This document shows positions 30,971-64,000 of a stretch of DNA of 64,000 nt, in pieces. The stretch covers positions 1,385,888 to 1,449,887 of the forward strand of contig OY288106.1 in assembly GCA_958431155.1 (NCBI GenBank), written 5' to 3'. The notes beneath the pieces are model-generated. The model saw only the letters and a list, made by a program, of their open reading frames with translations, had not been told where the DNA came from and did no database searches. Within the stretch, counting starts at the first letter, position 1. Each line of letters opens with the position of its first letter. Made by a program: the position numbers and the translations under genes. The DNA is from an uncultured candidatus Porisulfidus sp. GTDB taxonomy: Bacteria; Pseudomonadota; Gammaproteobacteria; Poriferisulfidales; Poriferisulfidaceae.

Positions 30971-31411
30971 TTAACCCGCATCCCAAGGGTTGACGATCTC
31001 TACCCCCAGGTTTTCGAAATCCTTCACGTTCCGGGTGACCAGCGCAAAGTTGTTTGCTACCGCCGTCCCTGCGATCAAGGCATCGCTTAGTGCGAGTGAA
31101 TGGCCTGAGCGCTTCGCTTTGGCCCGGAGAAAAGCCGCCACCTCCATCTCTTCTTTCCCGATTGGCAGAATGCGGCCCTTGAACAGGTCCATGAGGAAAC
31201 CGATCTGGATTTTCAGGGTGTTTTGGCGGTGCCCTTGCGGGAGAAGGTGAACCCCATACTCCAACTCGCCGCGTACGACGACGGATGTCCAGAATTTTTT
31301 CCGATCGGTCAGGAAGGCGATAGCCGAAGCGGCCGGATCGTGTTTTGTGAATTCGGAAAACACGTTGGTGTCGAGAAGACAATCAGACACGTCACTCCGT
31401 AGCGTAGTCAA
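30971..31411 (-). CDS. PIN-domain toxin (VapC/FitB-like ribonuclease)
   Basis: 146 residues. The PIN fold is shown by LLDTNVFSEF (first acidic residue), a mid-protein GELEYGVHLL helix, LSDALIAGTA and LVTRNVKDFENLGVEIVNPW. Such toxins cleave RNA when freed from antitoxin. It overlaps the upstream antitoxin by 20 bases; a GTG just after the antitoxin stop (VSDCLLDTN) may be the true start. Confidence 0.88.
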   Translation of the reverse strand: MTTLRSDVSDCLLDTNVFSEFTKHDPAASAIAFLTDRKKFWTSVVVRGELEYGVHLLPQGHRQNTLKIQIGFLMDLFKGRILPIGKEEMEVAAFLRAKAKRSGHSLALSDALIAGTAVANNFALVTRNVKDFENLGVEIVNPWDAG

Positions 31412-31697
31412 TGAATGGAATGGGGCGCTCCCTTTCCTCTTTTCTTGAAGGAATCTCCAGGCCGTCCTCAGGCAGATCTTCCGGATTGGGCCTGAATTTC
31501 ATAATCATCTCGCCAAGCGACATGCCTGGAGTCTCTGCGGCTTCCCAGGCTTCCCGCGACATGATGACGAAGGTCTTTTTCACCCCGACCTGCTGCGGCC
31601 CCTCCTCTTCGGCCAGCCTCAGGATCTCGGACAGGCGGGCCTTGGCCTCGGCAATCGGCCAGATTTTCTCGGATAGTTCGGCAGTAGGATCCCGCAT
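31392..31697 (-). CDS. Phd/YefM-type antitoxin
   Basis: 101 residues from ATG 31697, chosen for GGAGGG five bases upstream; ATG 31709 is an alternative. The N-terminus (IWPIAEAKARLSEILRLAEEEGPQQV, shortened here to its key part AEAKARLSEILRLAEEEGPQ) is the Phd dimerisation and DNA-binding region. The C-terminal tail is acidic and Pro-rich, suitable for wrapping the toxin. It forms an operon with the PIN gene. Confidence 0.85.
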   Translation of the reverse strand: MRDPTAELSEKIWPIAEAKARLSEILRLAEEEGPQQVGVKKTFVIMSREAWEAAETPGMSLGEMIMKFRPNPEDLPEDGLEIPSRKEERERPIPFIDYATE

Positions 31698-31713
31698 GAT
31701 TCCCTCCATAGCA

Positions 31714-34659: not shown

Positions 34660-35937
34660 ATGCCCGCTGAAAAACTTGTTTTCCCTGGCCGCAACTATCT
34701 CTACGCACCAGGGCCCACGCATATTCCGGTCGCTGTTCAGAACGCCATGATCGTGCCGATGGAGGACCATCGGGCGCCCGACTTCCCCAAGCTGGTCAAG
34801 CCTCTGCTGCGCGACCTCAACAAGATCTTCAAGACCCGCACCGGCAAGAGCTTCATCTTTCCCGCTACCGGCACGGCCGGCTGGGAAGTGGCGCTGACCA
34901 ATACCCTGTCGCCGGGTGACCGCGTCCTGACCGCCCGTTTCGGGCAATTTTCCCACTTGTGGGCGGATCTGGCCCAGCGTATGGGTTTGGACGTGGAACT
35001 GGTGCAAGTGCCTTGGGGCGAAGGCGTGCCGCTCAAGCAGTTCGAGCAGATCCTGAAGAAGGACAAGGAACACAAGATCAAGGCGGTACTGGCCTGCCAT
35101 AACGAGACCGCGACCGGCGTCACCAGTAACATCGCGGGCCTGCGCAGGGCCATGGACCGGGCCAAGCACCCGGCGATGCTGATGGTCGACGGCGTCAGTT
35201 CCATCGCCAGCATCGACTTCCGCATGGACGACTGGAAGGTCGACGTGGCCGTGTCCGGTTCGCAGAAAGGTTTCATGCTGCCGGCCGGCATGGCGCTGGT
35301 CTGTTTCTCGCGCCGGGCGCTGGCGGCGGCAAAGAACGCCGGCTGCAAGCGCTGCTTCCTGGACATAGCCGACCATATCGCGACCAACAAGGATGGCTTC
35401 TTCCCGTACACCCCCTCGGCACCGATGCTGCGTGGCCTGCGCGCCTCGATCGACCTGCTGCTCGGGGAAGGCCTGGAGAATGTGTTCCAGCGCCACCACC
35501 GGCTCGCCGAAGGCGTGCGCCGGGCGATTTTAGGATGGGGTTTGGACCTGTTCGCGGCCGAACCGAAGTGGTACTCCGACACGGTGTCCGCCATCAAGGT
35601 TCCGAAAAACGTGAATGCTGCCGAAGTGATTCATATTGCCTACCACCGCTACAACATCTCGCTGGGCGCCGGCCTGTCCGAGGTTGCCGGCAAGGTGTTC
35701 CGCATTGGCCACTTGGGCGACAACAACGAAGTCCGCATGATGGCGGCCCTCGGTGGCGTGGAGATGGCGATGCGCGATGCTGGCATGAAGGTCCGCCCGG
35801 GCTCGGGCGTGGCGAAGGCGGTCGAGTACTACTGCGGCACCGCGAAGGGCAAGAAGAAGATCCCCGCGTTCGGCGCCGCCAAGGGCCCTCGCGAGACCGC
35901 CGTAAAAAAGGCGGCCCCGAAGCGCAAGAAGAAGTGA
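34660..35937 (+). CDS. sga: Serine-glyoxylate aminotransferase
   Basis: 425 residues, class V aminotransferase. The family N-terminus FPGRNYLYAPGPTHIPVAVQ, the TGTAGWEVALTN segment and the PLP lysine in VSGSQKGFMLPAG are clear. It converts serine and glyoxylate to hydroxypyruvate and glycine, the entry step of the serine cycle. A basic 25-residue tail (GAAKGPRETAVKKAAPKRKK) is an extension I cannot explain. AAAAGGA precedes the ATG. First gene of the serine-cycle operon. Confidence 0.94.
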   Translation: MPAEKLVFPGRNYLYAPGPTHIPVAVQNAMIVPMEDHRAPDFPKLVKPLLRDLNKIFKTRTGKSFIFPATGTAGWEVALTNTLSPGDRVLTARFGQFSHLWADLAQRMGLDVELVQVPWGEGVPLKQFEQILKKDKEHKIKAVLACHNETATGVTSNIAGLRRAMDRAKHPAMLMVDGVSSIASIDFRMDDWKVDVAVSGSQKGFMLPAGMALVCFSRRALAAAKNAGCKRCFLDIADHIATNKDGFFPYTPSAPMLRGLRASIDLLLGEGLENVFQRHHRLAEGVRRAILGWGLDLFAAEPKWYSDTVSAIKVPKNVNAAEVIHIAYHRYNISLGAGLSEVAGKVFRIGHLGDNNEVRMMAALGGVEMAMRDAGMKVRPGSGVAKAVEYYCGTAKGKKKIPAFGAAKGPRETAVKKAAPKRKKK

Positions 35938-35947
35938 GGAATCCTGA

Positions 35948-36889
35948 ATGAGCCACACTCAAGCGACCCCCGCGCCGACCCGTCTGCAGCGTAGCGAACT
36001 GGCAGTCCCGGGCTCCAACCCGGCACTGTTTGAAAAAGCACTGAACTCCGCGGTCGACTACGTCTTCCTGGACCTGGAAGACGCGGTTGCGCCGGGCGAC
36101 AAGGAGCAGGCCCGGGTCAATGTCATCCAGGCCTTGCGCGACTTGGACTGGCGAGGCGCAGGAAAGACCATCTCGGTGCGCATCAACGGGCTGGACACTC
36201 ACTACATGTACCGCGACGTGGTGGACTTGATGGAACAGGCGGGCGACCGCCTGGACACGATCCTGATTCCGAAAGTGGGCGTGCCGTCGGACGTCTATAT
36301 GGTCGAGGCGATGGTGAACCAGATTGAGCAGGGAAAAGGTTTTGAGACCCGGGTCGGCTTGGAAGCCCTGATCGAGACGGCTCTCGGCATGGCCAATGTC
36401 GAAGCGATCGCCGCCTACGGCGGGCGCATGGAGGCCCTGCATTTCGGGGTGGCGGACTACGCCGCATCCAATCGTGCGCGCACGGTCAACATCGGCGGAC
36501 TCAATCCCGACTACCCGGGAGACCAGTGGCACTTTGCCCTGTCTCGCATGACGGTGGCCTGCCGGGCGTACGGCTTGCGGGCGATCGACGGACCGTTCGG
36601 CGACTTCAAGGACCCGGACGGCTATCGGGCGGCAGCACGCCGCGCCGCTGCACTCGGGATCGAGGGCAAGTGGGCGATCCATCCGTCCCAGATCGAACTG
36701 GCCAATGAAATCTTCTCCCCGCCGGAAGCGGAAGTGGACCGGGCCCGGCGAATCCTTCAGGAACTGGAGATCGCGGCGGCGGAAGGCCGGGGCGCAGCTG
36801 CCGTCGACGGCAAGATGATCGATGCGGCTTCGGCAAGGATGGCCGAGAACGTGGTGCGTTTGGCGGAAGCAATCGCCGCACGCAGCTAA
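35948..36889 (+). CDS. mcl: Malyl-CoA lyase
   Basis: 313 residues, HpcH/HpaI-CitE superfamily. Motifs are RSELAVPGSNPALFEKAL, VFLDLEDAVAPGDKEQAR (metal-binding acidic residues), LETALG-like segment ALIETALGMANVEAIA and GKWAIHPSQIELAN. It splits malyl-CoA into acetyl-CoA and glyoxylate. GAGGA lies before ATG 35948, eleven bases after sga. Confidence 0.93.
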   Translation: MSHTQATPAPTRLQRSELAVPGSNPALFEKALNSAVDYVFLDLEDAVAPGDKEQARVNVIQALRDLDWRGAGKTISVRINGLDTHYMYRDVVDLMEQAGDRLDTILIPKVGVPSDVYMVEAMVNQIEQGKGFETRVGLEALIETALGMANVEAIAAYGGRMEALHFGVADYAASNRARTVNIGGLNPDYPGDQWHFALSRMTVACRAYGLRAIDGPFGDFKDPDGYRAAARRAAALGIEGKWAIHPSQIELANEIFSPPEAEVDRARRILQELEIAAAEGRGAAAVDGKMIDAASARMAENVVRLAEAIAARS

Positions 36890-36905
36890 AACGAGGACAA
36901 GCAAC

Positions 36906-38078
36906 ATGCACATACACGAATACCAGGCCAAGGAAGTTCTGGCCAACTATGGAATCCAGACACAGCCGGGTACGCTGGTGTACAGCCCCGACCAGGCTGT
37001 GGCTGCCTACAACTCTCAAGGGTCCGCGGTATGCGCGGTCAAGGCGCAGATCCATTCCGGCGCCCGCGGCAAGGCCGGGGGCATCCGGTTGTGCCGGAGC
37101 AACGACGAGGTGCGCCGCGCTGCGGACGAGATGTTGGGCGAGAAGCTGGTGACCCACCAGACCGGCTCGAGCGGCAAACTGGTTCAGAAGCTGTACGTCG
37201 AGGCTGGGGTCGATATCGACCGCGAAATCTACCTGGCGTTCGTGCTGGATCGGGCCAAGCAGCGGCATGTTGCCGTGGCTTCCGCCGAGGGGGGCATGGA
37301 AATCGAGCAGCTGGCCCAGGAGAAACCGGAAAGCATCCTGCGCATCAGCATCGACCCGGCATCCGGCATGCGTCACTTCCAGGCGCAGGAACTGGCCTTC
37401 GGGCTGGGATTGGGGGCCGACCTGGTCAAACAGGCGGTGTCCACGTTCCGCGGCCTGTACAAGGCGATGATCCAACTGGACGCCAGCATGGTCGAGATCA
37501 ATCCGCTGGTGGTGACCCGGGACCGGCGCTTGATCGCCCTGGACGCCAAGATGGAATTCGACGACAACGCACTGTTCCGTCATCGCGAGGTGGCCGAACT
37601 GCGCGACATGTCGCAGGAGGATCCGCGCGAGACCGCGGCCTCCGACCACGACCTCAGCTACGTCGGCCTGGACGGCGACATCGGCTGCATGATCAATGGC
37701 GCCGGGCTGGCCATGGCCACCATGGACATGATCAAGCTGTCCGGCGGCGAGCCGGCCAACTTCCTCGACATCGGCGGCGGCGCGTCGCCGGAGCGGGTGG
37801 CCAAGGCGTTCGAACTGGTGCTGCAGGACGGCAGCGTCAAAGCCATGCTGGTCAACATCTTCGCGGGAATCAATCGCTGCGACTGGATCGCCGAAGGCCT
37901 GATCAAGGCGCTCGGCGTGGTCGATCTCGGCGTGCCCCTGGTGGTGCGCCTATCCGGCACCAATGTGGAGGAAGGCACCCAGATGCTGGTCGACAGCGGG
38001 TTGCCCATCATCATGGCCGATACGCTGGCCGATGCCGCCCAAAAAGTGGTGGCGGCCGCACAAGGACAGGGAGACTGA
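36906..38078 (+). CDS. mtkA: Malate-CoA ligase (malate thiokinase) beta subunit
   Basis: 390 residues from ATG 36906 (CGAGGACAAG upstream). It is a SucC-type ATP-grasp protein: MHIHEYQAKEVL, AQIHSGARGKAGGI, MVEINPLVV, and LDIGGGASPERVAKAFELV. Between mcl and the alpha subunit, malate rather than succinate is the expected substrate. The pair makes malyl-CoA from malate, CoA and ATP. Confidence 0.93.
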   Translation: MHIHEYQAKEVLANYGIQTQPGTLVYSPDQAVAAYNSQGSAVCAVKAQIHSGARGKAGGIRLCRSNDEVRRAADEMLGEKLVTHQTGSSGKLVQKLYVEAGVDIDREIYLAFVLDRAKQRHVAVASAEGGMEIEQLAQEKPESILRISIDPASGMRHFQAQELAFGLGLGADLVKQAVSTFRGLYKAMIQLDASMVEINPLVVTRDRRLIALDAKMEFDDNALFRHREVAELRDMSQEDPRETAASDHDLSYVGLDGDIGCMINGAGLAMATMDMIKLSGGEPANFLDIGGGASPERVAKAFELVLQDGSVKAMLVNIFAGINRCDWIAEGLIKALGVVDLGVPLVVRLSGTNVEEGTQMLVDSGLPIIMADTLADAAQKVVAAAQGQGD

Positions 38079-38081
38079 CAC

Positions 38082-38969
38082 ATGTCGATTCTGATCAACA
38101 AAGACACCAAGATCCTGATCCAGGGCTTCACCGGTCGGATCGGAACCTTTCACGCCAAGGAGATGCTGGAATACGGCAGCAACGTGGTCGGGGGCGTCAC
38201 GCCGGGGAAAGGCGGACAGGCGCACCTGAACCTGCCGGTGTTCAACACCATCAAGGAAGCGGTAGATGCAACTGGCGCAACGGCCAGCATCGTGTTCGTG
38301 CCCGCAGCCGCAGCCGCCGACTCGATCATGGAAGCCGCCGACGGGGGCATCAAGTATTGCGTGGCAATTACCGACGGCATCCCGGCCCAGGACATGATCC
38401 GCGTCAAGCGCTTCATGCTGCGCTACCCGAAAGAACGCAAGATGATCCTGACCGGGCCCAACTGCGCGGGCTCCATCACGCCGGGTGAAGCGATGCTCGG
38501 AATCATGCCGGGCCATATCTACGAGCCGGGTCGGGTTGGCGTGGTCGGACGTTCCGGCACGCTGGGCTACGAAGCCGCCTCGCAGATGAAGGCCGAAGGC
38601 ATCGGCATCTCGACCAGCATCGGAATCGGTGGCGACCCGATCAACGGGAGCTCGCACCGCGACATCATGGAACTGTTCGAGCAGGACCCCGATACGGACG
38701 CGGTCATGATCATCGGCGAGATCGGGGGTCCACAGGAAGCGGAAGCGGCGGAGTTCGCGCGCGACCACATGAGCAAGCCGGTCGCGGCCTACGTGGCAGG
38801 CCTGACCGCGCCGAAAGGACGCCGCATGGGCCATGCCGGGGCCATCATTTCCGGGAAAGGCGAGAGCGCTTCGGAGAAAGTCGAGATTTTCAAGGAAGCC
38901 GGGGTAGCGATCGTGCCGAATCCCTCTGAATTCGGCTCCACCATGAAGGACGTTGTGTCGAGGCTCTAA
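38082..38969 (+). CDS. mtkB: Malate-CoA ligase (malate thiokinase) alpha subunit
   Basis: 295 residues, SucD type. Rossmann-like CoA-binding N-terminus (ILIQGFTGRIGTFHAKEML), VGVVGRSGTLGYEA, and the phosphohistidine in RRMGHAGAIISG. Pairs with MtkA three bases upstream. The order mtkA-mtkB within the serine-cycle operon separates it from TCA-cycle sucCD. Confidence 0.93.
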   Translation: MSILINKDTKILIQGFTGRIGTFHAKEMLEYGSNVVGGVTPGKGGQAHLNLPVFNTIKEAVDATGATASIVFVPAAAAADSIMEAADGGIKYCVAITDGIPAQDMIRVKRFMLRYPKERKMILTGPNCAGSITPGEAMLGIMPGHIYEPGRVGVVGRSGTLGYEAASQMKAEGIGISTSIGIGGDPINGSSHRDIMELFEQDPDTDAVMIIGEIGGPQEAEAAEFARDHMSKPVAAYVAGLTAPKGRRMGHAGAIISGKGESASEKVEIFKEAGVAIVPNPSEFGSTMKDVVSRL

Positions 38970-38978
38970 GGAGGCCGC

Positions 38979-39950
38979 ATGTCAAAGCCCAAAGTCATTG
39001 CCACGCGCCGCTGGCCGGAGCCAGTCGAGGCGCACCTGTTCGAACACTACGACTTCACGCTGAACGAGGACGACCACCCGATGAGCGTGGGCGAGCTGCA
39101 TCAGGCTCTGCGCGAGTATGATGCGGTCTGCCCGACCGTGACCGATCCGATTACCGCCGAAGTGCTCGGCATCGACGGCATCCGCGCAAAGATCCTGGGC
39201 AATTTTGGCGTTGGCTTCAACCATATCGACCTGGACGCGGCCAAGCAGGCCAGTCTCGTCGTGACCAACACCCCGGAAGTCCTGACCGACTGCACCGCGG
39301 ACATCGCCATGAACCTGATGCTGACCGCCGCTCGCCGCACCGGCGAAGGCGAACGGCACCTGCGCGCCGGAGAGTGGACTGGCTGGCGCCCGACCCACAT
39401 GCTGGCGACCAAGGTCACCGGCAAGACCCTGGGCTGCATCGGTTTCGGCCGTATCGCCCAGGCCATGGCCCAGCGCTGCCACTTTGGTTTCGGCATGAAG
39501 GTGATCTTCCACGACCCGTACCCGCCGAAGCCGGAAGTCGTGGAGAAGTTCCAGGCGGTCGCCTGCAATTCGGTCGAGGAAGTGCTGGAGCAGGCCGACT
39601 TTGTGTCCCTGCATTGCCCGGGTGGCGAATCGACCTACCACCTGCTCAACGAGGAGCGCCTGGCCCGGATGAAGCCTTCCGCCTTCCTGATCAATTCCGC
39701 ACGGGGCGACATCATTGACAACCAGGCCCTGATCGCGGCACTGAAAAACGGCACCATCGCAGGTGCCGGGCTCGACGTCTTCGAAGGCGAGCCCAAACTG
39801 GATCCCGGATTCCTGGGCATTGAGAACGCGGTTCTGCTGCCGCACCTCGGCAGCGCCTCGACCGAGACCCGGATCGCCATGGGCATGCGGGTGGTCGAGA
39901 ACCTGGAGCTGTTTTTCTCCGACCAGGAGCCGCGCGACCGCGTCGCCTGA
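38979..39950 (+). CDS. hprA: Hydroxypyruvate reductase (D-2-hydroxyacid dehydrogenase)
   Basis: 323 residues. Substrate-binding NFGVGFNHIDL, nucleotide fold LGCIGFGRIAQAMA, catalytic Arg in NSARGDIID, Glu in DVFEGEPKLD and His in LLPHLGSAS. It reduces hydroxypyruvate to glycerate in the serine cycle and may also act on glyoxylate. A strong AAGGAGG sits before the ATG. Confidence 0.92.
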   Translation: MSKPKVIATRRWPEPVEAHLFEHYDFTLNEDDHPMSVGELHQALREYDAVCPTVTDPITAEVLGIDGIRAKILGNFGVGFNHIDLDAAKQASLVVTNTPEVLTDCTADIAMNLMLTAARRTGEGERHLRAGEWTGWRPTHMLATKVTGKTLGCIGFGRIAQAMAQRCHFGFGMKVIFHDPYPPKPEVVEKFQAVACNSVEEVLEQADFVSLHCPGGESTYHLLNEERLARMKPSAFLINSARGDIIDNQALIAALKNGTIAGAGLDVFEGEPKLDPGFLGIENAVLLPHLGSASTETRIAMGMRVVENLELFFSDQEPRDRVA

Positions 39951-39979
39951 GCGCCTGCTCCGGGACCGGCCCCGCCTGC

Positions 39980-42682
39980 ATGCCGTCCGACGTCGCTCCT
40001 TCTGCCGATCGCCCGGAAGACCGTATACGCGCCGAGACCCTGCGTTATACCGAGAGCATGGTCCAGCGGCTGGGAGGGCTGCTGCTGGAAGTCATCCGTC
40101 GCCGAACCCCGGAAATCACTGAACTCCTTGAGAACCGGGGACAAATAACCCCGGAGACCCGGCTGCGGGTTCTTCAAGCCTACGGGATCGGTTTCCAACT
40201 GTTCAACATCGCCGAGCAAAACGCGGCGATCCGGCATCGCCGGGCGATCGAGGGCGAACTCGGGCCACAACAGGTGCCCGGGTCTTTTTCGGCTGCACTC
40301 GCGCATGCCCGCTCCGTCGGGCTTGATGCCGAGGCCGTTCGCGACCGTCTGCGGGACGCCCAGGTGGTGCCGGTGTTGACGGCACATCCGACCGAGGCCA
40401 AGCGGGTGACGGTGCTGGAAATCCATCGTCGCATCTACGTGTTGCTCAAGGAACTGGAAGAGACCCGCTACACCGAGCGGGAGCGCCAGCGCATGATCAA
40501 CGTCATCCGCGACGAGATCGACCTGTTGTGGATGACCGGAGAGATCCGCCTGACCAAGCCGACCGTGACCGAGGAGGTCGCGTGGATCCTGCACTTTTTC
40601 GATGAATCGCTTTATCGCGGCGCACGCGACCTGTTCTGGCAGTTGTCGCAGGCGCTGGAGGAACACTACCCCGACGCGCAGTTCGAGACGCCGCCGCTGC
40701 TCCACTTCGGCTGCTGGGTCGGCGGTGACCGCGACGGCAATCCCCACGTGACTCCCGAAGTGACCCGGAAGGCCCTTGACGGTTACCGGGAGGCCGCGTT
40801 GTCGCACCTGTACCGGCAAATAACCGAGGCCCGGAGCCGGCTGTCCATTGCCGCGCACGCGGTGGCCGTGCCGGCGGAATTCCTGTCGCGCCTTGATGTC
40901 ATGCTGGGCGGGCATGCGGACGCGGACGCATTGCGCGCGCGCAATCCCCAGGAAGTATTCCGGCAATACTTGAACCTTCTGATGCGCCGCCTTGCGGCGA
41001 CCCAGAGTGAAGCCCCGGAAGGCTATGCGAATGCGACCGAGTTGGTGGAAGACCTGAAGGCCCTGGAAAAAACCCTGCGCGAGACCGATTGCGGCTCCAT
41101 CGCCGACTTGCTGGTGCGCCCGCTGCGCCTGGAAGCGCAGGTGTTCGGCTTTCATACCGTGAGCCTGGACATTCGGGAGAACAGCACCGTCATCAACGAT
41201 ACCCTGGCAATTCTGTATCGCCAACTGGAAGGGGATGAGCCGCCGGAATCGGGGAGCGAGGCATGGCTGGAATGGCTGAAGCGGCGGCTTGCCGAGCCCC
41301 TGGAGGACATCCCCGAATTGGAGCTTGAGGATGAAATGGCGCAACGCACCCTGGAGTTGTTCCGGTTGCTCGGCGAGGTCGCGGACCGACGCGGGATGGA
41401 GCCGTTCGGAGCCTTTATCCTGAGCATGACGCACACGCAGGCGGACTTGCTGGGGGTGTACCTCCTGGCCAAGTACGGCGGGCTGTTTTCCGACCTCAAG
41501 AACTGCGAGACCTGCCGCCTGCCGGTGGTGCCGCTGCTGGAGACGATCGAGGATCTACGCCGTGGACCCGGGTTGCTGCGCGAGTTGCTGGACGTCCCGC
41601 TGGTACGCCGCAGCGTCCGGGCCGGCCCCGGGGTGCTGGAGGTGATGGTGGGTTACTCGGATTCCAACAAGGACGGCGGGTTCCTGTGCTCCAACCACGA
41701 GGTGTCGCTGGCCCAGTCCCGAATGCACCGGGTGGGCGAGGAGCGCGGCGTGTCGGTGGTATTCTTCCATGGTCGCGGCGGGTCGTCGTCGCGTGGCGGG
41801 ATGCCGGCCGGCCGCGCGATTGCCGCCCAGCCGCCGGGCACCATCGGGGGACGGATGCGGCTGACCGAGCAGGGCGAAGTGGTGTCGGGAAAATACGCGA
41901 ACCGCGGTTACGCGGAGACGCAACTGGAGATCTTGGCGGCCAGCGTGCTGGAACACTCCCTGCCCGGCAACGAGAACCGGCACCCCGGGTTCGAGGAGGC
42001 CATGGAGGCCCTGTCGCAACTGTCGTACACCGCCTACCGGAAATTGGCCGACCACCCCGGCCTGGTCATGTTCTATCAGGATGCCTCGCCGGTCGAAGAA
42101 TTGGCCTTGCTCAAGATCGGCTCCCGGCCGATGCGCCGCTTCGGCGCAAACACCTTGGATGACTTGCGCGCCATTCCCTGGGTGTTCGCCTGGACGCAGA
42201 ACCGCATGATGGTCCCGGGCTGGTATGGCGTGGGCGATGCCATCACGGAGTTTATCCGGGTGCGGGGCGAGGCGGGCGAAAGGTTGCTGCGCAAGATGTT
42301 CGAGGAGCACCGCCTGTTCCGGCTGGTGATCGACGAGGTGGAGAAGACTCTGTACCAGGTCCAACTCGACATTGCGCGGGACTACGCCGCGCTGGTCCCG
42401 GATCCCGAGGTGGGAGCCGAGATCTTTTCGATGATTGAGCAGGAATACGAGCGGACCCGCGAGGTCGTGCTTCGGGTGTCCGGCAGCGAGGCTCTGTGCG
42501 ACCGCTTCGTGATGTTCAGCGACCGCCTGTCGCGGCGGCTGCCGATCATCGACCGGGTCAGTCGCGAGCAGGTCGAACTGATCAAACTGTGCCGGGGCAA
42601 GGAGCGTCCGGAGACGCTGGATCTGGTTCCGCTGCTGTTGTCGATCAACTGCGTGGCGGCCGGGCTGGGCTGGACCGGTTGA
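39980..42682 (+). CDS. ppc: Phosphoenolpyruvate carboxylase
   Basis: 900 residues. Catalytic His in TAHPTEAKR, GGDRDGNP, VMVGYSDSNKDGG, FFHGRGGSSSRGG and the C-terminal LLLSINCVAAGLGWTG. It carboxylates PEP to oxaloacetate, the CO2-fixing step of the serine cycle. No clear RBS; the start is placed by the MPSD...PEDRIRAETLRY N-terminus. It follows hprA by 29 bases, inside the same operon. Confidence 0.94.
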   Translation: MPSDVAPSADRPEDRIRAETLRYTESMVQRLGGLLLEVIRRRTPEITELLENRGQITPETRLRVLQAYGIGFQLFNIAEQNAAIRHRRAIEGELGPQQVPGSFSAALAHARSVGLDAEAVRDRLRDAQVVPVLTAHPTEAKRVTVLEIHRRIYVLLKELEETRYTERERQRMINVIRDEIDLLWMTGEIRLTKPTVTEEVAWILHFFDESLYRGARDLFWQLSQALEEHYPDAQFETPPLLHFGCWVGGDRDGNPHVTPEVTRKALDGYREAALSHLYRQITEARSRLSIAAHAVAVPAEFLSRLDVMLGGHADADALRARNPQEVFRQYLNLLMRRLAATQSEAPEGYANATELVEDLKALEKTLRETDCGSIADLLVRPLRLEAQVFGFHTVSLDIRENSTVINDTLAILYRQLEGDEPPESGSEAWLEWLKRRLAEPLEDIPELELEDEMAQRTLELFRLLGEVADRRGMEPFGAFILSMTHTQADLLGVYLLAKYGGLFSDLKNCETCRLPVVPLLETIEDLRRGPGLLRELLDVPLVRRSVRAGPGVLEVMVGYSDSNKDGGFLCSNHEVSLAQSRMHRVGEERGVSVVFFHGRGGSSSRGGMPAGRAIAAQPPGTIGGRMRLTEQGEVVSGKYANRGYAETQLEILAASVLEHSLPGNENRHPGFEEAMEALSQLSYTAYRKLADHPGLVMFYQDASPVEELALLKIGSRPMRRFGANTLDDLRAIPWVFAWTQNRMMVPGWYGVGDAITEFIRVRGEAGERLLRKMFEEHRLFRLVIDEVEKTLYQVQLDIARDYAALVPDPEVGAEIFSMIEQEYERTREVVLRVSGSEALCDRFVMFSDRLSRRLPIIDRVSREQVELIKLCRGKERPETLDLVPLLLSINCVAAGLGWTG

Positions 42683-51832: not shown

Positions 51833-52885
51833 ATGGCGACAGTCCGGCTCCGGAACGCCGACCGCTCGTTCGAAATTCAGGGGAACGAAACTCTGCTTGA
51901 GGCCGCCATCCGCGAGGGTGTCGGCCTTCCGTACGGATGCAGCGCCGGGAATTGCGGGCTGTGCCGTGCCCGGCTGATAGAGGGGGAGCTCAAGCCCGTT
52001 CGTCACCACGACTTCGTGTTCACACAAGCCGAGCGGGCGCACGGCGATTTCCTGATGTGCTCTAACGGCGCGCAGAGCGATCTCACGCTCGAGGTTGTGC
52101 TCGAAAAAGACCCGACGTCCATTCCCTGGCAGACCTTGCGGGCGAAAGTGAAGGTTGCCGAAAAGCTCGGTGAGCGCCTGTTGTGGCTGAAGTTGCGCGT
52201 ACCCCGCTCGCAACGGCTCCGCTTCATGGCCGGCCAGTATGCGACCCTGACGCTGGAGAACGGCACGATGAGCGACAGTGCGATTGCCAGTTGCCCCTGC
52301 GACGAACGGCATGTCGACTTCCACATCCGCCGCCTGCCGGACGACGATTTCTCCGACAGCGCATTCAAGTCCCTGCGCCCGGGGCAGACCGTGACGGTCG
52401 AAGCGCCGGGGGGACGGTTCGCATTCGACGATAATTCCGCTCGCCCGGCCCTGTTCGTGGCGTTCGACACCGGGTTCGCGGCCATCAAGAGCATGCTCGA
52501 ACACCTCACCGCGCGCGAATCCGAGCAACCCCTGTATCTGTACCGGATCTGCTGTGGCAAGGAGGACCTGTACATGCACAACCTGTGCCGTTCCTGGGCG
52601 GATGCACTGGACGAATTCAGCTACACGCCCCTGGTGATCGAAGAGTCGTTCAACGAATGGGCACAGGACGAGTTGTCCGGCATGGACAAGGTCGAGACGA
52701 TGTTGAAACGCGTGCTGGAAGACCACCCGGACCTGTCCGGGATGGATTTGTACATCTGCGCGCCGGAACCGGTGGTGGAGCGCTTTGATGCCTTGGCCAT
52801 GGAGCACCAACTGGTGCGAGACCAGTTTCACGCCGAAATCATCCGCGGCAACTCGTACACCCGCTGCCTGGGGGTGACGGCATGA
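51833..52885 (+). CDS. [2Fe-2S] ferredoxin-NAD(P)H reductase-like flavoprotein
   Basis: 350 residues with three parts: plant-type ferredoxin domain (CSAGNCGLCRARL and a distal MCSN Cys), a FAD-binding barrel (FMAGQYATLTLENG) and a C-terminal FNR-like nucleotide domain. The FAD motif normally RxYS is replaced by SDSAIASCP, and the NAD part has VAFDTGFAAIKSMLEH instead of GGTGxAP. It resembles reductase components of mono- and dioxygenases, but these changes may alter cofactor use. The next two genes overlap or follow closely, suggesting a redox unit with the GcvH-like protein. Confidence 0.8.
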   Translation: MATVRLRNADRSFEIQGNETLLEAAIREGVGLPYGCSAGNCGLCRARLIEGELKPVRHHDFVFTQAERAHGDFLMCSNGAQSDLTLEVVLEKDPTSIPWQTLRAKVKVAEKLGERLLWLKLRVPRSQRLRFMAGQYATLTLENGTMSDSAIASCPCDERHVDFHIRRLPDDDFSDSAFKSLRPGQTVTVEAPGGRFAFDDNSARPALFVAFDTGFAAIKSMLEHLTARESEQPLYLYRICCGKEDLYMHNLCRSWADALDEFSYTPLVIEESFNEWAQDELSGMDKVETMLKRVLEDHPDLSGMDLYICAPEPVVERFDALAMEHQLVRDQFHAEIIRGNSYTRCLGVTA

Positions 52886-53277
52886 ACACGCGCTGTCCGT
52901 TCGAGCGCTTGATCGTTGCCGAGACACATGCCTGCTCGCGGGCCATGGCGGTGACACGCCGGGAGGGTGCCGGCATTGATTGCAATGATGCCTGCGCCTG
53001 CGATCGTTGCCGGTCCCTGCAGGAGTTCTTCGAGCAGGTCGGTGCCGAAGCGTTCGGGGAGGTGGAGGATCGCACCCAGGTGCCACATAGTACGTTGCTG
53101 AAGATCCAGATTGGTGGCTTGGCAGGAACGGCGCAATGTCTGAATCTGTCCGTGGGCGAGAAGATCGAAGACCTGGACCAGGTGGCGGGACAGGCAGACG
53201 GAAACCTAGAAATCCTGGATCATGAAGTCCTGGCCGAGGCCATGCGCAGTGCACGCGCCCGGCGGCGGCGGCACTAG
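52882..53277 (+). CDS. Cys-rich small protein of unknown function
   Basis: 131 residues, overlapping the reductase by four bases (ATGA). Seven or so cysteines lie in the first 45 residues, including CNDACACDRC, a likely metal or Fe-S site. A central LLKIQIGGLAGTAQCLNL segment follows, and the C-terminus is basic (ARARRRRH). I do not recognise a family. Its position between a flavoprotein reductase and a lipoyl carrier suggests an electron-transfer or assembly role. Confidence 0.65.
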   Translation: MNTRCPFERLIVAETHACSRAMAVTRREGAGIDCNDACACDRCRSLQEFFEQVGAEAFGEVEDRTQVPHSTLLKIQIGGLAGTAQCLNLSVGEKIEDLDQVAGQADGNLEILDHEVLAEAMRSARARRRRH

Positions 53278-53288
53278 ACGGAGAGGCT

Positions 53289-53663
53289 ATGAGCAAGCGC
53301 TGTTACAGCCAGAATCACCTTTGGCTGGAACCCGATGGATCCGGCACGGCCGCCGTGGGCGTGACCCGTTACGCGCAGGAGGAACTGGGCGACATTCTGT
53401 TCGTGGAATTGCCCGAGCCTGGCGCCGAACTGGTGCAGGACCAGAGCTTCGGGGTCATCGAGTCGGTTAAGACGGCATCCGAACTGATTGCGCCGGCTTC
53501 AGGCCGGGTCGTGGAAGTCAACGAGGGTTTGCGCGAAGAGCCGTGGCAGGTCAATGATTCGCCGGAGGGCGACGGCTGGATCCTGAAGATGAGTTGTGCC
53601 GAACCCGATCCTTGCGCGTCCTTGATGGATGCGGAAGCCTACGAAGAATTGACTGGCGGGTAG
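53289..53663 (+). CDS. gcvH: GcvH-like lipoyl carrier protein
   Basis: 124 residues, hammerhead lipoyl domain. The lipoylation lysine is in GVIESVKTASELIAPASG; also GVTRYAQEELGDILFVELP, as in GcvH. Glycine cleavage H carries the aminomethyl arm between P, T and L proteins. None of those genes is here; partners are a ferredoxin-type reductase and a Cys-rich protein. So it may serve another lipoyl-dependent process. GGAGAGGCT precedes the ATG. Confidence 0.85.
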   Translation: MSKRCYSQNHLWLEPDGSGTAAVGVTRYAQEELGDILFVELPEPGAELVQDQSFGVIESVKTASELIAPASGRVVEVNEGLREEPWQVNDSPEGDGWILKMSCAEPDPCASLMDAEAYEELTGG

Positions 53664-56323: not shown

Positions 56324-56650
56324 TCACGTCATTTTCATGTTTTCGATTGCACCCTGCTCGAAGTCGACCTCCACGACCAGATCGGACTTCAACTGGGATT
56401 GGCAGGCCAGAACGTAGCCCTTCTTGAGCATGTCGCCATCCAGCACGTAAGCGAAATCGTTCAATGCCTTGACCTTGCCTTCCTTGAGGATGCACCGGCA
56501 GGTTCCGCAACTTCCCACCTTGCAGTCGCAGGGCCACTTGATGCCCGCGTTCAAGGCTGCCTGCAGCAGATTTATCTTGCCGGGGACCTCGAAAGTCTCG
56601 CCGGTGTTGGCGATAGTGCACTTGAAGTCCTTTTTCTTGCCAAATAACAT
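56324..56650 (-). CDS. [2Fe-2S] ferredoxin
   Basis: 108 residues from ATG 56650; an upstream TTG at 56662 is less likely. Plant-type ferredoxin with WPCDCKVGSCGTCRCIL and the distal Cys in GYVLACQSQ. A soluble electron carrier, partner unknown. Same strand as bfd/bfr, 88 bases upstream of bfd, so iron-linked co-regulation is possible. Confidence 0.88.
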   Translation of the reverse strand: MLFGKKKDFKCTIANTGETFEVPGKINLLQAALNAGIKWPCDCKVGSCGTCRCILKEGKVKALNDFAYVLDGDMLKKGYVLACQSQLKSDLVVEVDFEQGAIENMKMT

Positions 56651-56663
56651 CCGAAATCCCAAT

Positions 56664-56714: not shown

Positions 56715-57491
56715 TCAGGTTTGGTATGTGCTTGCGGGTGTCTGGGCGGCCTTGAGAAAACGGCGCACATAGCGAGGCGCGATGTTGGCGCGGTTGAGCA
56801 GCACCAGCATGTCGGCCACGTTGAATTTTCTATCCCAGCAGGGCGTGCCGCAGATTTCCGCGCCGAGATTCAGATAGGCTTTCAGCAAGGGCGGCAGGAC
56901 CTCCCGGACCGAATCGGAAAGCTCAATAGTTGCATCCATGGCGGGCTGGTCCGGCTTGGGCAGGGGGACACGCGGATGGACGTCCAGGTCCAGATTCACC
57001 AGGCCGCGTTCCAGCGCATTCTGGTAGATAGCATGAGCCTGGTGGCCCCCGTCCGACATGCCCACGCTGGCACACCCGAACAGATGGTCATAGTTCTGCG
57101 ACAGCATGAATTCCGCGAGGCCAAGCCACAGGCAGGTGATGGCACCGCCGCTGCGATGCTCGGGATGCACGCAGGTGCGGCCGACTTCCAGTTTTTTCCC
57201 GGGGAGGCTGCGCAGGTGCCCCAGCTTGAATTCCGATTGGCTGTAGAAACCCCCGGCCTGTGGAACATCTTCGTCCGAGAGAACCCGGGTGCAGGCCACG
57301 ATGTCTCCGGTAATCGTGTCGGATACGGTCAGGTGACGGCAGAACGGGTCATAGGGATCCGAGTCAATCTGCTCTGCGGCGCTTTCCAGAGATGCTCCCA
57401 TTTCCAATGCGAAAACCCGGTAGCGCAGACGCTGGCATTCGACAATAGCGGATGCCTGGGTGGCGATTTCGAACTTGTATCGGCTAGCCAT
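56715..57491 (-). CDS. olsB: Acyl-ACP N-acyltransferase, OlsB-like (GNAT/hemolysin family)
   Basis: 258 residues. Conserved family segments are CQRLRYRVFALEMGA, DPFCRHLTVSD, EVGRTCVHPEHRSGGAITCLW, YDHLFGCASVGM and a C-terminal LLKAYLNLGAEICGTPCWDRKFNVADMLVLL. OlsB adds a 3-hydroxyacyl chain to ornithine, the first step to ornithine lipids. No olsA is near. A broader family assignment (putative hemolysin) is equally defensible. Confidence 0.8.
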   Translation of the reverse strand: MASRYKFEIATQASAIVECQRLRYRVFALEMGASLESAAEQIDSDPYDPFCRHLTVSDTITGDIVACTRVLSDEDVPQAGGFYSQSEFKLGHLRSLPGKKLEVGRTCVHPEHRSGGAITCLWLGLAEFMLSQNYDHLFGCASVGMSDGGHQAHAIYQNALERGLVNLDLDVHPRVPLPKPDQPAMDATIELSDSVREVLPPLLKAYLNLGAEICGTPCWDRKFNVADMLVLLNRANIAPRYVRRFLKAAQTPASTYQT

Positions 57492-61978: not shown

Positions 61979-64000
61979 ATGGCCCACGAATCCAAAACCT
62001 TTGAAACCGGGCAGCCTATCGCGATCGTCGGGATGGCGTGCCGGTTCCCTGGCGCGGACAATCTTTCTGCCTTCTGGCGTCAACTGGAAGCCGGGGAGTG
62101 CGCCGTAATAGAAGGCGTTCCGGGTTCCGGCATCGGGCGCATCGGCGAGCTTTTCCCGGACTCTTCGGTTCAGGCCAAGGCCTGTCGCTTTGGCGCCTAC
62201 CTCGACGGACTGGACCAGTTCGATGCCGCGTTTTTCCGCATCTCGCCGGTCGAGGCGCAATTACTGGATCCGCAGCAACGTTTGATGCTGGAGACCAGTT
62301 GGCGAGCCCTTGAGGACGCAGGAGTGGACCCGGACCGGCTCAAGGGCAGCCGTACCGGAGTCTATGCAGGGATCAGCAACAACGAATACCGGAACCTGAT
62401 CCTGGACATCAGCGATACTTCCGAGCCTGCGGTCAGCCTTTACTCGGTGACCGGCACTTCCTTCAACACCGCTATCGGGCGAGTCGCCTACGTGCTGGGT
62501 CTGGAGGGGCCGGCGATGGCAGTGGATACCGCTTGCTCATCTTCGCTGGTCGCGACACACCAGGCCGTGACGGGGCTGCAGCGAGGCGAGGCGGATCTCG
62601 CCCTCGCGGGGGGCGTGCACACGATCCTTTCCGGGAAGCTGCTGGAATTTCGCGCGAATGCCGGGATGCTGTCCCCGGACGGGCGTTGCAAGACGTTTGA
62701 CGCGGCTGCAAATGGATACGTGCGTGGGGAGGGTTGCGGGATCATTGTTTTGAAGCGACTCAGCGAAGCGGAGGCGGACGGGGACCGGATCTGGGGAGTC
62801 ATTCGGGGTTCCGCATTGAACCAGGACGGAGCAAGCCCCGGGCTGACGGTACCCAGCGGGGCGGCACAGCAGGGAGTGATCGAGGCAGCACTGCATCGTG
62901 CAGGGGTTTCGGCCTCCCAAGTGGATTATGTCGAGGCTCACGGGACGGGGACGGAAGTCGGCGACCCGATCGAGGCCAAGGCAATGGGGACGGCCTATGG
63001 CAAGGAGCGTGAAGCGGACCACCCGCTGTTGGTTGGCTCGGTGAAGACAAACGTCGGCCACCTGGAAGCGGCGGCAGGAGTCGCGGGCCTGATCAAGGTC
63101 CTGCTGGCCATGAATCACAAAATCATTCCGAAGCACCTGCATTTCCAGAACCCCAGCCCGCAAATAGACTGGGAGCGGTTGCCGTTACGGGTGACGTCGG
63201 AGCCGACGGACTGGCCGACTCATTCGGATCGCCCCCCGTTGGCGGGAGTGAGCGGGTTCGGATGGTCGGGAACGAATGCACATGTCGTGCTGGAGGGCTA
63301 TGAGGCCCCGGACGAGGCCGCTTCCAGCATGGAAGAGCGGTATTGGGTTGCGGGGAGCCCGAAGCCGGTCACGGAACCGCCGGCCGAAGAGCCTGCCGCC
63401 GGACGCGGGACGCGCCTGCTGCCGTTGTCGGGCAAGTCGGGCCCGGCGCTGCGGGAGTTGGCCGGTCGCTACCGGGACTGGCTCGACGAGTGCGGAGATC
63501 TTTCCCCGGCGGATGCGGGGGATCCGCTGCTTTCCGACATGGCATGGACGGCCGGGGTGGGCCGGAGCCACTTCCCGCACCGCGCGGGCGTGGTGTTCAA
63601 CGATGCGGAATCGCTTCGGGCTGGCCTGACGGAACTGGCGGAGGCATCGGACGAGCCGGAGCCGCGGGAGACGGGGAAGGTGGCGTTCGTATACACCGGG
63701 CAGGCGAGCCAGTGGGTCGGGATGGGCGAGGAGTTGTACGAGAGCGAGCCGGTGGTGCGGGTGGTGCTGGACCGGTGCGACGCACTGCTTCGGGAGGAAC
63801 GGGGCGAATCGTTGCTGGACGTGATGTTCGGGCAGTCGGGGGAGCTGGACGATCCGGCGTGGGTGCAGCCGGCGATCTATGCATTGGAGTGTGCGTTGAC
63901 GGCGCTGTGGACGAGCGTGGGGGTGCGCCCGGACGTGGTGCTGGGGCACAGCCTGGGGGAGATTGCGGCGGCGCAGGCGGCGGGGGTGTTCAGCCTGGAG
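61979..64000 (+). CDS. Type I modular polyketide synthase, N-terminal KS-AT (partial)
   Basis: 674 residues to the right edge, still open. Ketosynthase (about residues 14-440): IAIVGMACRFPGADN, catalytic Cys186 in DTACSSSL, His321 in EAHGTGT and His361 in NVGHLE, all intact; FGWSGTNAHVVLE closes it. A linker leads to an acyltransferase (from about 560) with VYTGQASQWVGMGEELYE and nucleophile Ser658 in GHSLGE. So elongation and extender loading are competent. No loading domain or docking helix precedes the KS. ATG 61979 has no clear RBS. Product unknown. Confidence 0.92.
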   Translation, partial: MAHESKTFETGQPIAIVGMACRFPGADNLSAFWRQLEAGECAVIEGVPGSGIGRIGELFPDSSVQAKACRFGAYLDGLDQFDAAFFRISPVEAQLLDPQQRLMLETSWRALEDAGVDPDRLKGSRTGVYAGISNNEYRNLILDISDTSEPAVSLYSVTGTSFNTAIGRVAYVLGLEGPAMAVDTACSSSLVATHQAVTGLQRGEADLALAGGVHTILSGKLLEFRANAGMLSPDGRCKTFDAAANGYVRGEGCGIIVLKRLSEAEADGDRIWGVIRGSALNQDGASPGLTVPSGAAQQGVIEAALHRAGVSASQVDYVEAHGTGTEVGDPIEAKAMGTAYGKEREADHPLLVGSVKTNVGHLEAAAGVAGLIKVLLAMNHKIIPKHLHFQNPSPQIDWERLPLRVTSEPTDWPTHSDRPPLAGVSGFGWSGTNAHVVLEGYEAPDEAASSMEERYWVAGSPKPVTEPPAEEPAAGRGTRLLPLSGKSGPALRELAGRYRDWLDECGDLSPADAGDPLLSDMAWTAGVGRSHFPHRAGVVFNDAESLRAGLTELAEASDEPEPRETGKVAFVYTGQASQWVGMGEELYESEPVVRVVLDRCDALLREERGESLLDVMFGQSGELDDPAWVQPAIYALECALTALWTSVGVRPDVVLGHSLGEIAAAQAAGVFSLE

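Follow-up and report, generated by a model that had tools for sequence, protein, structure and literature searches.

The window, by which we mean the whole 64,000-nucleotide stretch of DNA that we analysed, carries three genes, for a [2Fe-2S]/FAD reductase (P0001, hereafter FNR), a four-cysteine protein (P0002) and a GcvH-like lipoyl carrier (P0003). Reading the frames, all three of which are open on the + strand, confirmed the layout given in the first-pass annotation: the FNR and four-cysteine genes overlap by 4 bases, and 11 bases separate the latter from the GcvH-like gene. The features that we assigned to the three proteins are collected in Table 1.

Table 1. Genes and sequence features of the three-gene locus, in window coordinates.
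Feature	Position	Strand	Basis
P0001 (350 aa), ASCPC-family [2Fe-2S]/FAD reductase	51833..52885	+	Pfam Fer2, FAD_binding_6, NAD_binding_1; aligned relatives
Four [2Fe-2S] cysteines of P0001, C36, C41, C44 and C76	51938..52060	+	C-x4-C-x2-C...C in 24/24 rows
ASCPC motif of P0001, residues 152-156, where the FAD motif RxYS stands	52286..52300	+	24/24 rows; 0/24 with RxY[ST]
AFDTGFAAIKSML of P0001, residues 210-222, in place of the glycine-rich NAD motif	52460..52498	+	Alignment
C-terminal RGN-x4-C tail of P0001, residues 338-345	52844..52867	+	P0001 and 11/12 further distinct paired FNRs
P0002 (131 aa), type II member of a gammaproteobacterial four-cysteine family that has no name	52882..53277	+	
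Family-invariant cysteines of P0002, C5, C18, C34 and C43	52894..53010	+	Each column Cys in 131/133 members; other two truncated
PHSxxxKxQxGGLxG signature of P0002, residues 68-82	53083..53127	+	Alignments
GcvH-like lipoyl carrier (P0003, 124 aa)	53289..53663	+	TIGR00527; sole PF01597 match in the genome
Cys5 of P0003	53301..53303	+	Cys in 5/5 genus proteins, 0/12 control GcvH (one control without an aligned residue)
His10-Leu11-Trp12 of P0003, Leu for the HEW glutamate (Glu-14, E. coli numbering)	53316..53324	+	Leu in 5/5 genus proteins, Glu in 12/12 controls
Lys61 of P0003, predicted lipoyl attachment site (ESVK)	53469..53471	+	Conserved in all 15 aligned rows
Stretch with Cys103 and Cys109 of P0003	53595..53615	+	Cys in 5/5 genus proteins, 0/12 controls

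The trio closes a same-strand run of sugar-phosphate, Calvin-type genes (tkt, gap, pgk, pyk and fba, names assigned by eye), and a simple scan, a weak type of evidence, detected no terminator-like site on the + strand from fba to the end of the GcvH-like gene. Co-expression of the trio is likely, given this result and the 11-base gap. The genome comprises 1,593,361 bases in a single contig and is 98.3% complete; we take the organism and its congeners to be sponge symbionts, on the basis of the record title of Candidatus Porisulfidus sp. TsSOB. Elsewhere in the window, we noted an OlsB-like (ornithine-lipid acyltransferase) protein scoring under its cut-off (positions 56715-57491), two small overlapping genes that resemble by eye a VapBC-type toxin-antitoxin pair (30971-31709) and the beginning of a large frame that appears by eye to encode a polyketide-synthase ketosynthase (61979-64000), which is of interest in a sponge symbiont.

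Five genomes of the genus (the window's own and G015, G017, G018 and G019) retain the trio together with its flanks, and only the four-cysteine paralogue was found in the sixth, G016, which is 76% complete. Since the whole block from tkt to pcnB is syntenic across the five, we dropped conservation inside the genus as functional evidence; the adjacency of the GcvH-like gene to the other two may be due to chance, as it is confined to the genus and embedded in a block that is syntenic throughout. PADLOC matched nothing for any of the three proteins, and no title among the open-licence papers listed for our literature queries indicated a GcvH-FNR-Cys set or the P0002 family, which does not prove that none exists.

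P0001 shares the domain order Fer2, FAD, NAD with the BenC/MmoC-type [2Fe-2S] flavin reductases and with proteins annotated as CDP-6-deoxy-delta-3,4-glucoseen reductases, and each of the three domains scores over its Pfam cut-off. The best NCBIfam match is to BenC, at 144 bits and thus far short of the equivalog cut-off of 430, and P0001 shares 31-33% identity with its ten best named relatives from plasmids. The FNR differs from the BenC/MmoC type by the replacement of RxYS with ASCPC, by an NAD motif devoid of GGTG and by the RGN-x4-C tail. The altered FAD and NAD motifs pointed out in the first-pass annotation are real and represent a family trait, as judged from the invariance of ASCPC among 24 aligned FNR rows, which correspond to 20 distinct loci (four congener contigs are present twice) and were all found near genes of the four-cysteine family. 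ASCPC is absent from three of three named plasmid relatives, and two of those have R-x-Y-S. The tail is found in 12 of the 13 distinct FNRs encoded directly upstream of a four-cysteine gene, the exception being L064, and in none of the eight FNRs encoded elsewhere near such genes. Structure prediction for P0001 showed nothing unusual, at medium confidence (pLDDT 80.0). A small [2Fe-2S] ferredoxin, whose gene (56324-56662) lies near that of bacterioferritin, might exchange electrons with the FNR.

Relatives of P0002 occur in 93 of 369 genomes of the class. The family alignment contains 133 distinct sequences out of 142 matches, after removal of duplicates and of frames longer than 230 aa. In a Pfam and NCBIfam scan of 45 members (P0002 and 44 relatives), no model was hit by two or more of them and the few matches at E < 0.1 were scattered and single, which bears out the earlier description of a Cys-rich protein of no known family. 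The family splits into two main types, and the window's genome encodes a type I copy besides P0002, which is of type II; the type labels on our tree are pattern-based and some type II rows are marked as type I. The AlphaFold model of P0002 is of good confidence, with a pLDDT of 87.2 and a pTM of 0.81. Foldseek yielded 0 matches in the PDB at E <= 0.001 and the best VIA-align superposition has a Z of 3.6 over 70 residues (rmsd 5.1), so that the predicted model finds no convincing PDB match, which is not proof of a new fold. Two members of the family searched against plasmids gave no match. Directly upstream of 25 four-cysteine genes lies a gene for a protein of about 79 aa beginning with MPY (L108:5709-5948 and similar); the one that was scanned has no Pfam match.

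Outside the genus, an FNR gene stands directly upstream of a four-cysteine gene at eight loci (L063, L064, L065, L068, L069, L074, L097 and L129), all of which also have a sulfurtransferase gene downstream, at most 130 bp away at seven of them and 3.7 kb off at L068. The L063 sulfurtransferase, the one checked with NCBIfam, matches the 3-mercaptopyruvate sulfurtransferase model below its cut-off. No GcvH was detected at any of the eight within the stretches fetched. The neighbourhood conservation that the first-pass annotation had proposed to check thus holds for the FNR and the four-cysteine protein, and does not extend to the GcvH-like gene, which adjoins them in the five genomes of this genus only. 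We read these two proteins as a conserved redox pair of older standing, unnamed and widespread in Gammaproteobacteria. The pairing is not universal, since 13 of 32 rows are paired in the smallest tree clade that holds all FNR-paired members, and the four-cysteine protein does not need an FNR next door, as many members of its family are encoded without one. FNR genes within 6 kb of type I genes at several loci were dropped as paired contexts, being non-adjacent and devoid of the tail.

At three loci of one genus (L177:2-6381, L170 and L171), a type I four-cysteine gene directly follows dsr genes (J, O, P, N and R-like), a position at which dsrS would be expected. Families were checked at L177 only, where DsrO scores 298.5 bits against a cut-off of 200 and DsrJ and DsrP fall under theirs; we dropped a reading of the genes before the four-cysteine gene at the three loci as suf genes because NCBIfam identifies dsr at L177.

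P0003 retains the hallmarks of an H-protein: it scores 140.2 bits against TIGR00527, over the cut-off of 115.85 and hence at GcvH equivalog level, aligns over its full length and keeps the lipoyl lysine. It departs from GcvH by the substitution of Glu-14 with leucine and by the presence of three added cysteines. Our control set comprised 12 GcvH sequences from named plasmid records, hand-chosen from 40 among 162 matching records, seven of which are encoded beside an annotated gcvT or gcvP; five solved H-proteins (3mxu, 3a7a/3a8i, 2ka7/1zko, 2edg and 1dxm) agree with these controls by eye. According to PMC7733448, the aminomethyl arm of the E. coli H-protein is held in place by Glu-12 together with Glu-14. 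The five P0003 proteins of the genus are 86-92% identical, a closeness at which invariance of the three cysteines is weak evidence by itself. The dN/dS of the P0003 gene relative to the four congeners is 0.07-0.11, similar to that of neighbouring genes, indicating that the gene is maintained.

Our searches detected no glycine cleavage system to accompany P0003. P0003 is the single PF01597 match of the window's genome and hence its only gcvH, and a profile search detected GcvP over the cut-off in none of the six genus genomes, five of which are 95-98% complete; the same search was positive in G144, G281 and G327. A weak GcvP match in the window's genome corresponds to an O-acetylhomoserine sulfhydrylase, and a GCV_T search of this genome, part of which reads as N so that absences from it alone are not proof, recovered YgfZ only. 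We confirmed that no gcvT, gcvP or lpd gene lies near the trio, and we did not find the separate gcvTHP operon whose existence the first-pass annotation had left to be checked. A sole gcvH with gcvP and gcvT elsewhere, the case that it had set against its own reading, is not what we observed: gcvP is missing from the search results for all six genus genomes and gcvT from those for the window's genome.

LipB, LipA, Lpd and BirA are each encoded in the window's genome with scores over the cut-off, lpd being located away from the trio. As to the question of a lipoate ligase, a PF03099 search of the same partly N-masked genome returned BirA and LipB only, with no amidotransferase or ligase of the LipL/LplA type, and the HdrB/DsrK-type CCG domain (PF02754) was found in one protein of that genome, a GlcF-like one that scores below the GlcF equivalog cut-off, and in none near the trio. 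A PF00364 search of the window's genome, which matched only AccB and, weakly, a protein of the membrane-fusion type, had raised the idea that P0003 is the sole lipoyl protein. We dropped it because the congeners encode an E2-type lipoyl frame (pyruvate dehydrogenase E2) beside lpd in five of five cases and the matching region reads as N here.

A serine-cycle-like glyoxylate cluster lies elsewhere in the window (34660-42682) and encodes a BhcA-near aminotransferase, a CitE/malyl-CoA-lyase-like protein, a malate-CoA ligase beta subunit (641.6 bits against a cut-off of 604), a succinate/malate-CoA ligase alpha subunit, a glyoxylate-reductase-like protein and PEP carboxylase. For an organism that is apparently autotrophic and lacks glycine cleavage, this may provide a route for glyoxylate handling.

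Because glycine cleavage is undetected, the lipoyl lysine is kept, the gene is under purifying selection, Glu-14 is lost and three cysteines are gained, we read P0003 as probably a former H-protein repurposed as a stand-alone lipoyl carrier. P0003 is presumably lipoylated. The first-pass proposal of a stand-alone GcvH-like carrier is thereby strengthened as regards the undetectable glycine cleavage system, the presence of lipoylation genes and the departure from the canonical H-protein mould; against it, the TIGR00527 score of the protein still lies at GcvH equivalog level.

LbpA, from the sHdr pathway of sulfur oxidation, resembles P0003 in being a single-domain, GcvH-like carrier of lipoyl groups that is not part of glycine cleavage, and Cao et al. 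2018 (PMC6067878) describe extra cysteines near both ends, two of which mark LbpA. P0003 also has extra cysteines towards both termini (C5, C103 and C109), and an LbpA-like protein encoded on an Acidithiobacillus ferrooxidans plasmid (L209) is likewise devoid of the HEW glutamate, although the position of the N-terminal cysteine differs between the two. P0003 is 34-46% identical to canonical GcvH versus 29% to the LbpA-like protein. It further differs from LbpA by its neighbours, the FNR and the four-cysteine protein, and by its genome, in which, part being read as N, we found no association with an shdr cluster, no HdrB/DsrK-type CCG protein except the GlcF-like one and no dedicated lipoate-protein ligase (PF03099 accounting for BirA and LipB). 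The likeness, as far as alignment can tell, appears to be one of trend and not of position, and we do not file P0003 as an LbpA. The L209 gene itself (787-1233, plasmid pACF1), annotated as glycine cleavage H, is accompanied by genes for a thioredoxin and a hemerythrin and by a heterodisulfide-reductase-related gene.

We considered whether the FNR and the four-cysteine protein act by themselves, in the redox chemistry of Fe-S clusters or of sulfur transfer for instance, with P0003 holding a separate repurposed job and sharing only the transcript. The maintenance of the pair without GcvH at eight loci fits this account, as do the members of the four-cysteine family encoded beside dsr and glutaredoxin genes without an adjoining FNR. 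It sits less well with the tight spacing of the genes, which makes co-expression likely, and with the fact that P0003 and the pair both point to thiol chemistry; we regard it as a minority possibility. We deem it unlikely that P0003 is a relic, not yet deleted, of a photorespiratory glycine cleavage system that has disappeared, coincidentally placed behind the pair. The small genome (1.59 Mb), the restriction of the adjacency to the genus and a GcvP search that likewise stayed below the cut-off in G014 and G004, two further high-quality genomes from this order, would agree with a relic, but the protein is present in all five genomes in which the locus was found, with an intact lipoyl site and with the leucine at Glu-14 and the three cysteines fixed, and is subject to purifying selection equal to that on its neighbours.

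Least probable, in our estimation, is a lipoyl relay as in Bacillus subtilis, in which P0003 would take octanoyl or lipoyl groups and hand them to the E2 of pyruvate dehydrogenase: GcvH is required in B. subtilis apart from glycine cleavage, such a role is known (PMC6067878 and PMC10332631) and has been proposed for mammals (PMC7868403), and the genus has an E2, but the relay requires a LipL-type amidotransferase, where the PF03099 search identified only BirA and LipB (a hidden ligase is possible, part of the genome reading as N), LipB takes the place of LipM here and is, according to PMC10332631, the general transferase in Proteobacteria, and the Glu-14 and cysteine changes would be left unexplained.

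Overall, we favour, with a probability of roughly 40%, a repurposed carrier served by the older FNR-Cys redox pair, LbpA-like but without sHdr. That the three proteins cooperate is a tentative proposition, at somewhat less than even odds, and that sulfur chemistry is their business is more doubtful still. According to this repurposed-carrier model, the H-protein would have outlived its pathway as a free-standing lipoyl carrier that took on another function. Electrons from NAD(P)H or another donor would pass to the flavin and on to the [2Fe-2S] cluster within the FNR. They would then reach the four-cysteine protein, perhaps via the Cys tail of the FNR, and be exchanged between that protein and the lipoyl arm or the cysteines of P0003. 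The most likely role of the pair in this genus would be to maintain a suitable redox state of the lipoyl group or of the added cysteines, and P0003 could then accept or deliver sulfane sulfur or thiol electrons, the carrier occupying the place held elsewhere by the sulfurtransferase gene beside the pair. The cooperation of the three, the direction of flow and sulfur as the substrate are what we infer. Work cited in PMC6067878 places the lipoamide/dihydrolipoamide couple near -0.29 V and reports that dihydrolipoate takes sulfane sulfur from rhodanese. As counterpoints, the ordinary Lpd that is also encoded could serve P0003 alone, and the E2 of pyruvate dehydrogenase is another lipoyl protein of the genus.

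Protein-bound lipoate has only a few known uses. On a more speculative plane, and with the odds clearly against it, the locus might represent a third kind of lipoate-dependent system, beside the 2-oxoacid dehydrogenases/glycine cleavage and sHdr-LbpA, in which a symbiont living by chemoautotrophy would move thiol electrons or sulfane sulfur by means of a GcvH-derived carrier with its own electron-transfer pair of ASCPC flavoprotein and four-cysteine protein. The four-cysteine family and the ASCPC flavoprotein occur repeatedly beside sulfur genes. In a genus for which our searches gave no sign of glycine cleavage, P0003 is maintained by selection with a modified aminomethyl cavity and additional cysteines, and it would be a natural experiment on the origin of LbpA-like carriers.
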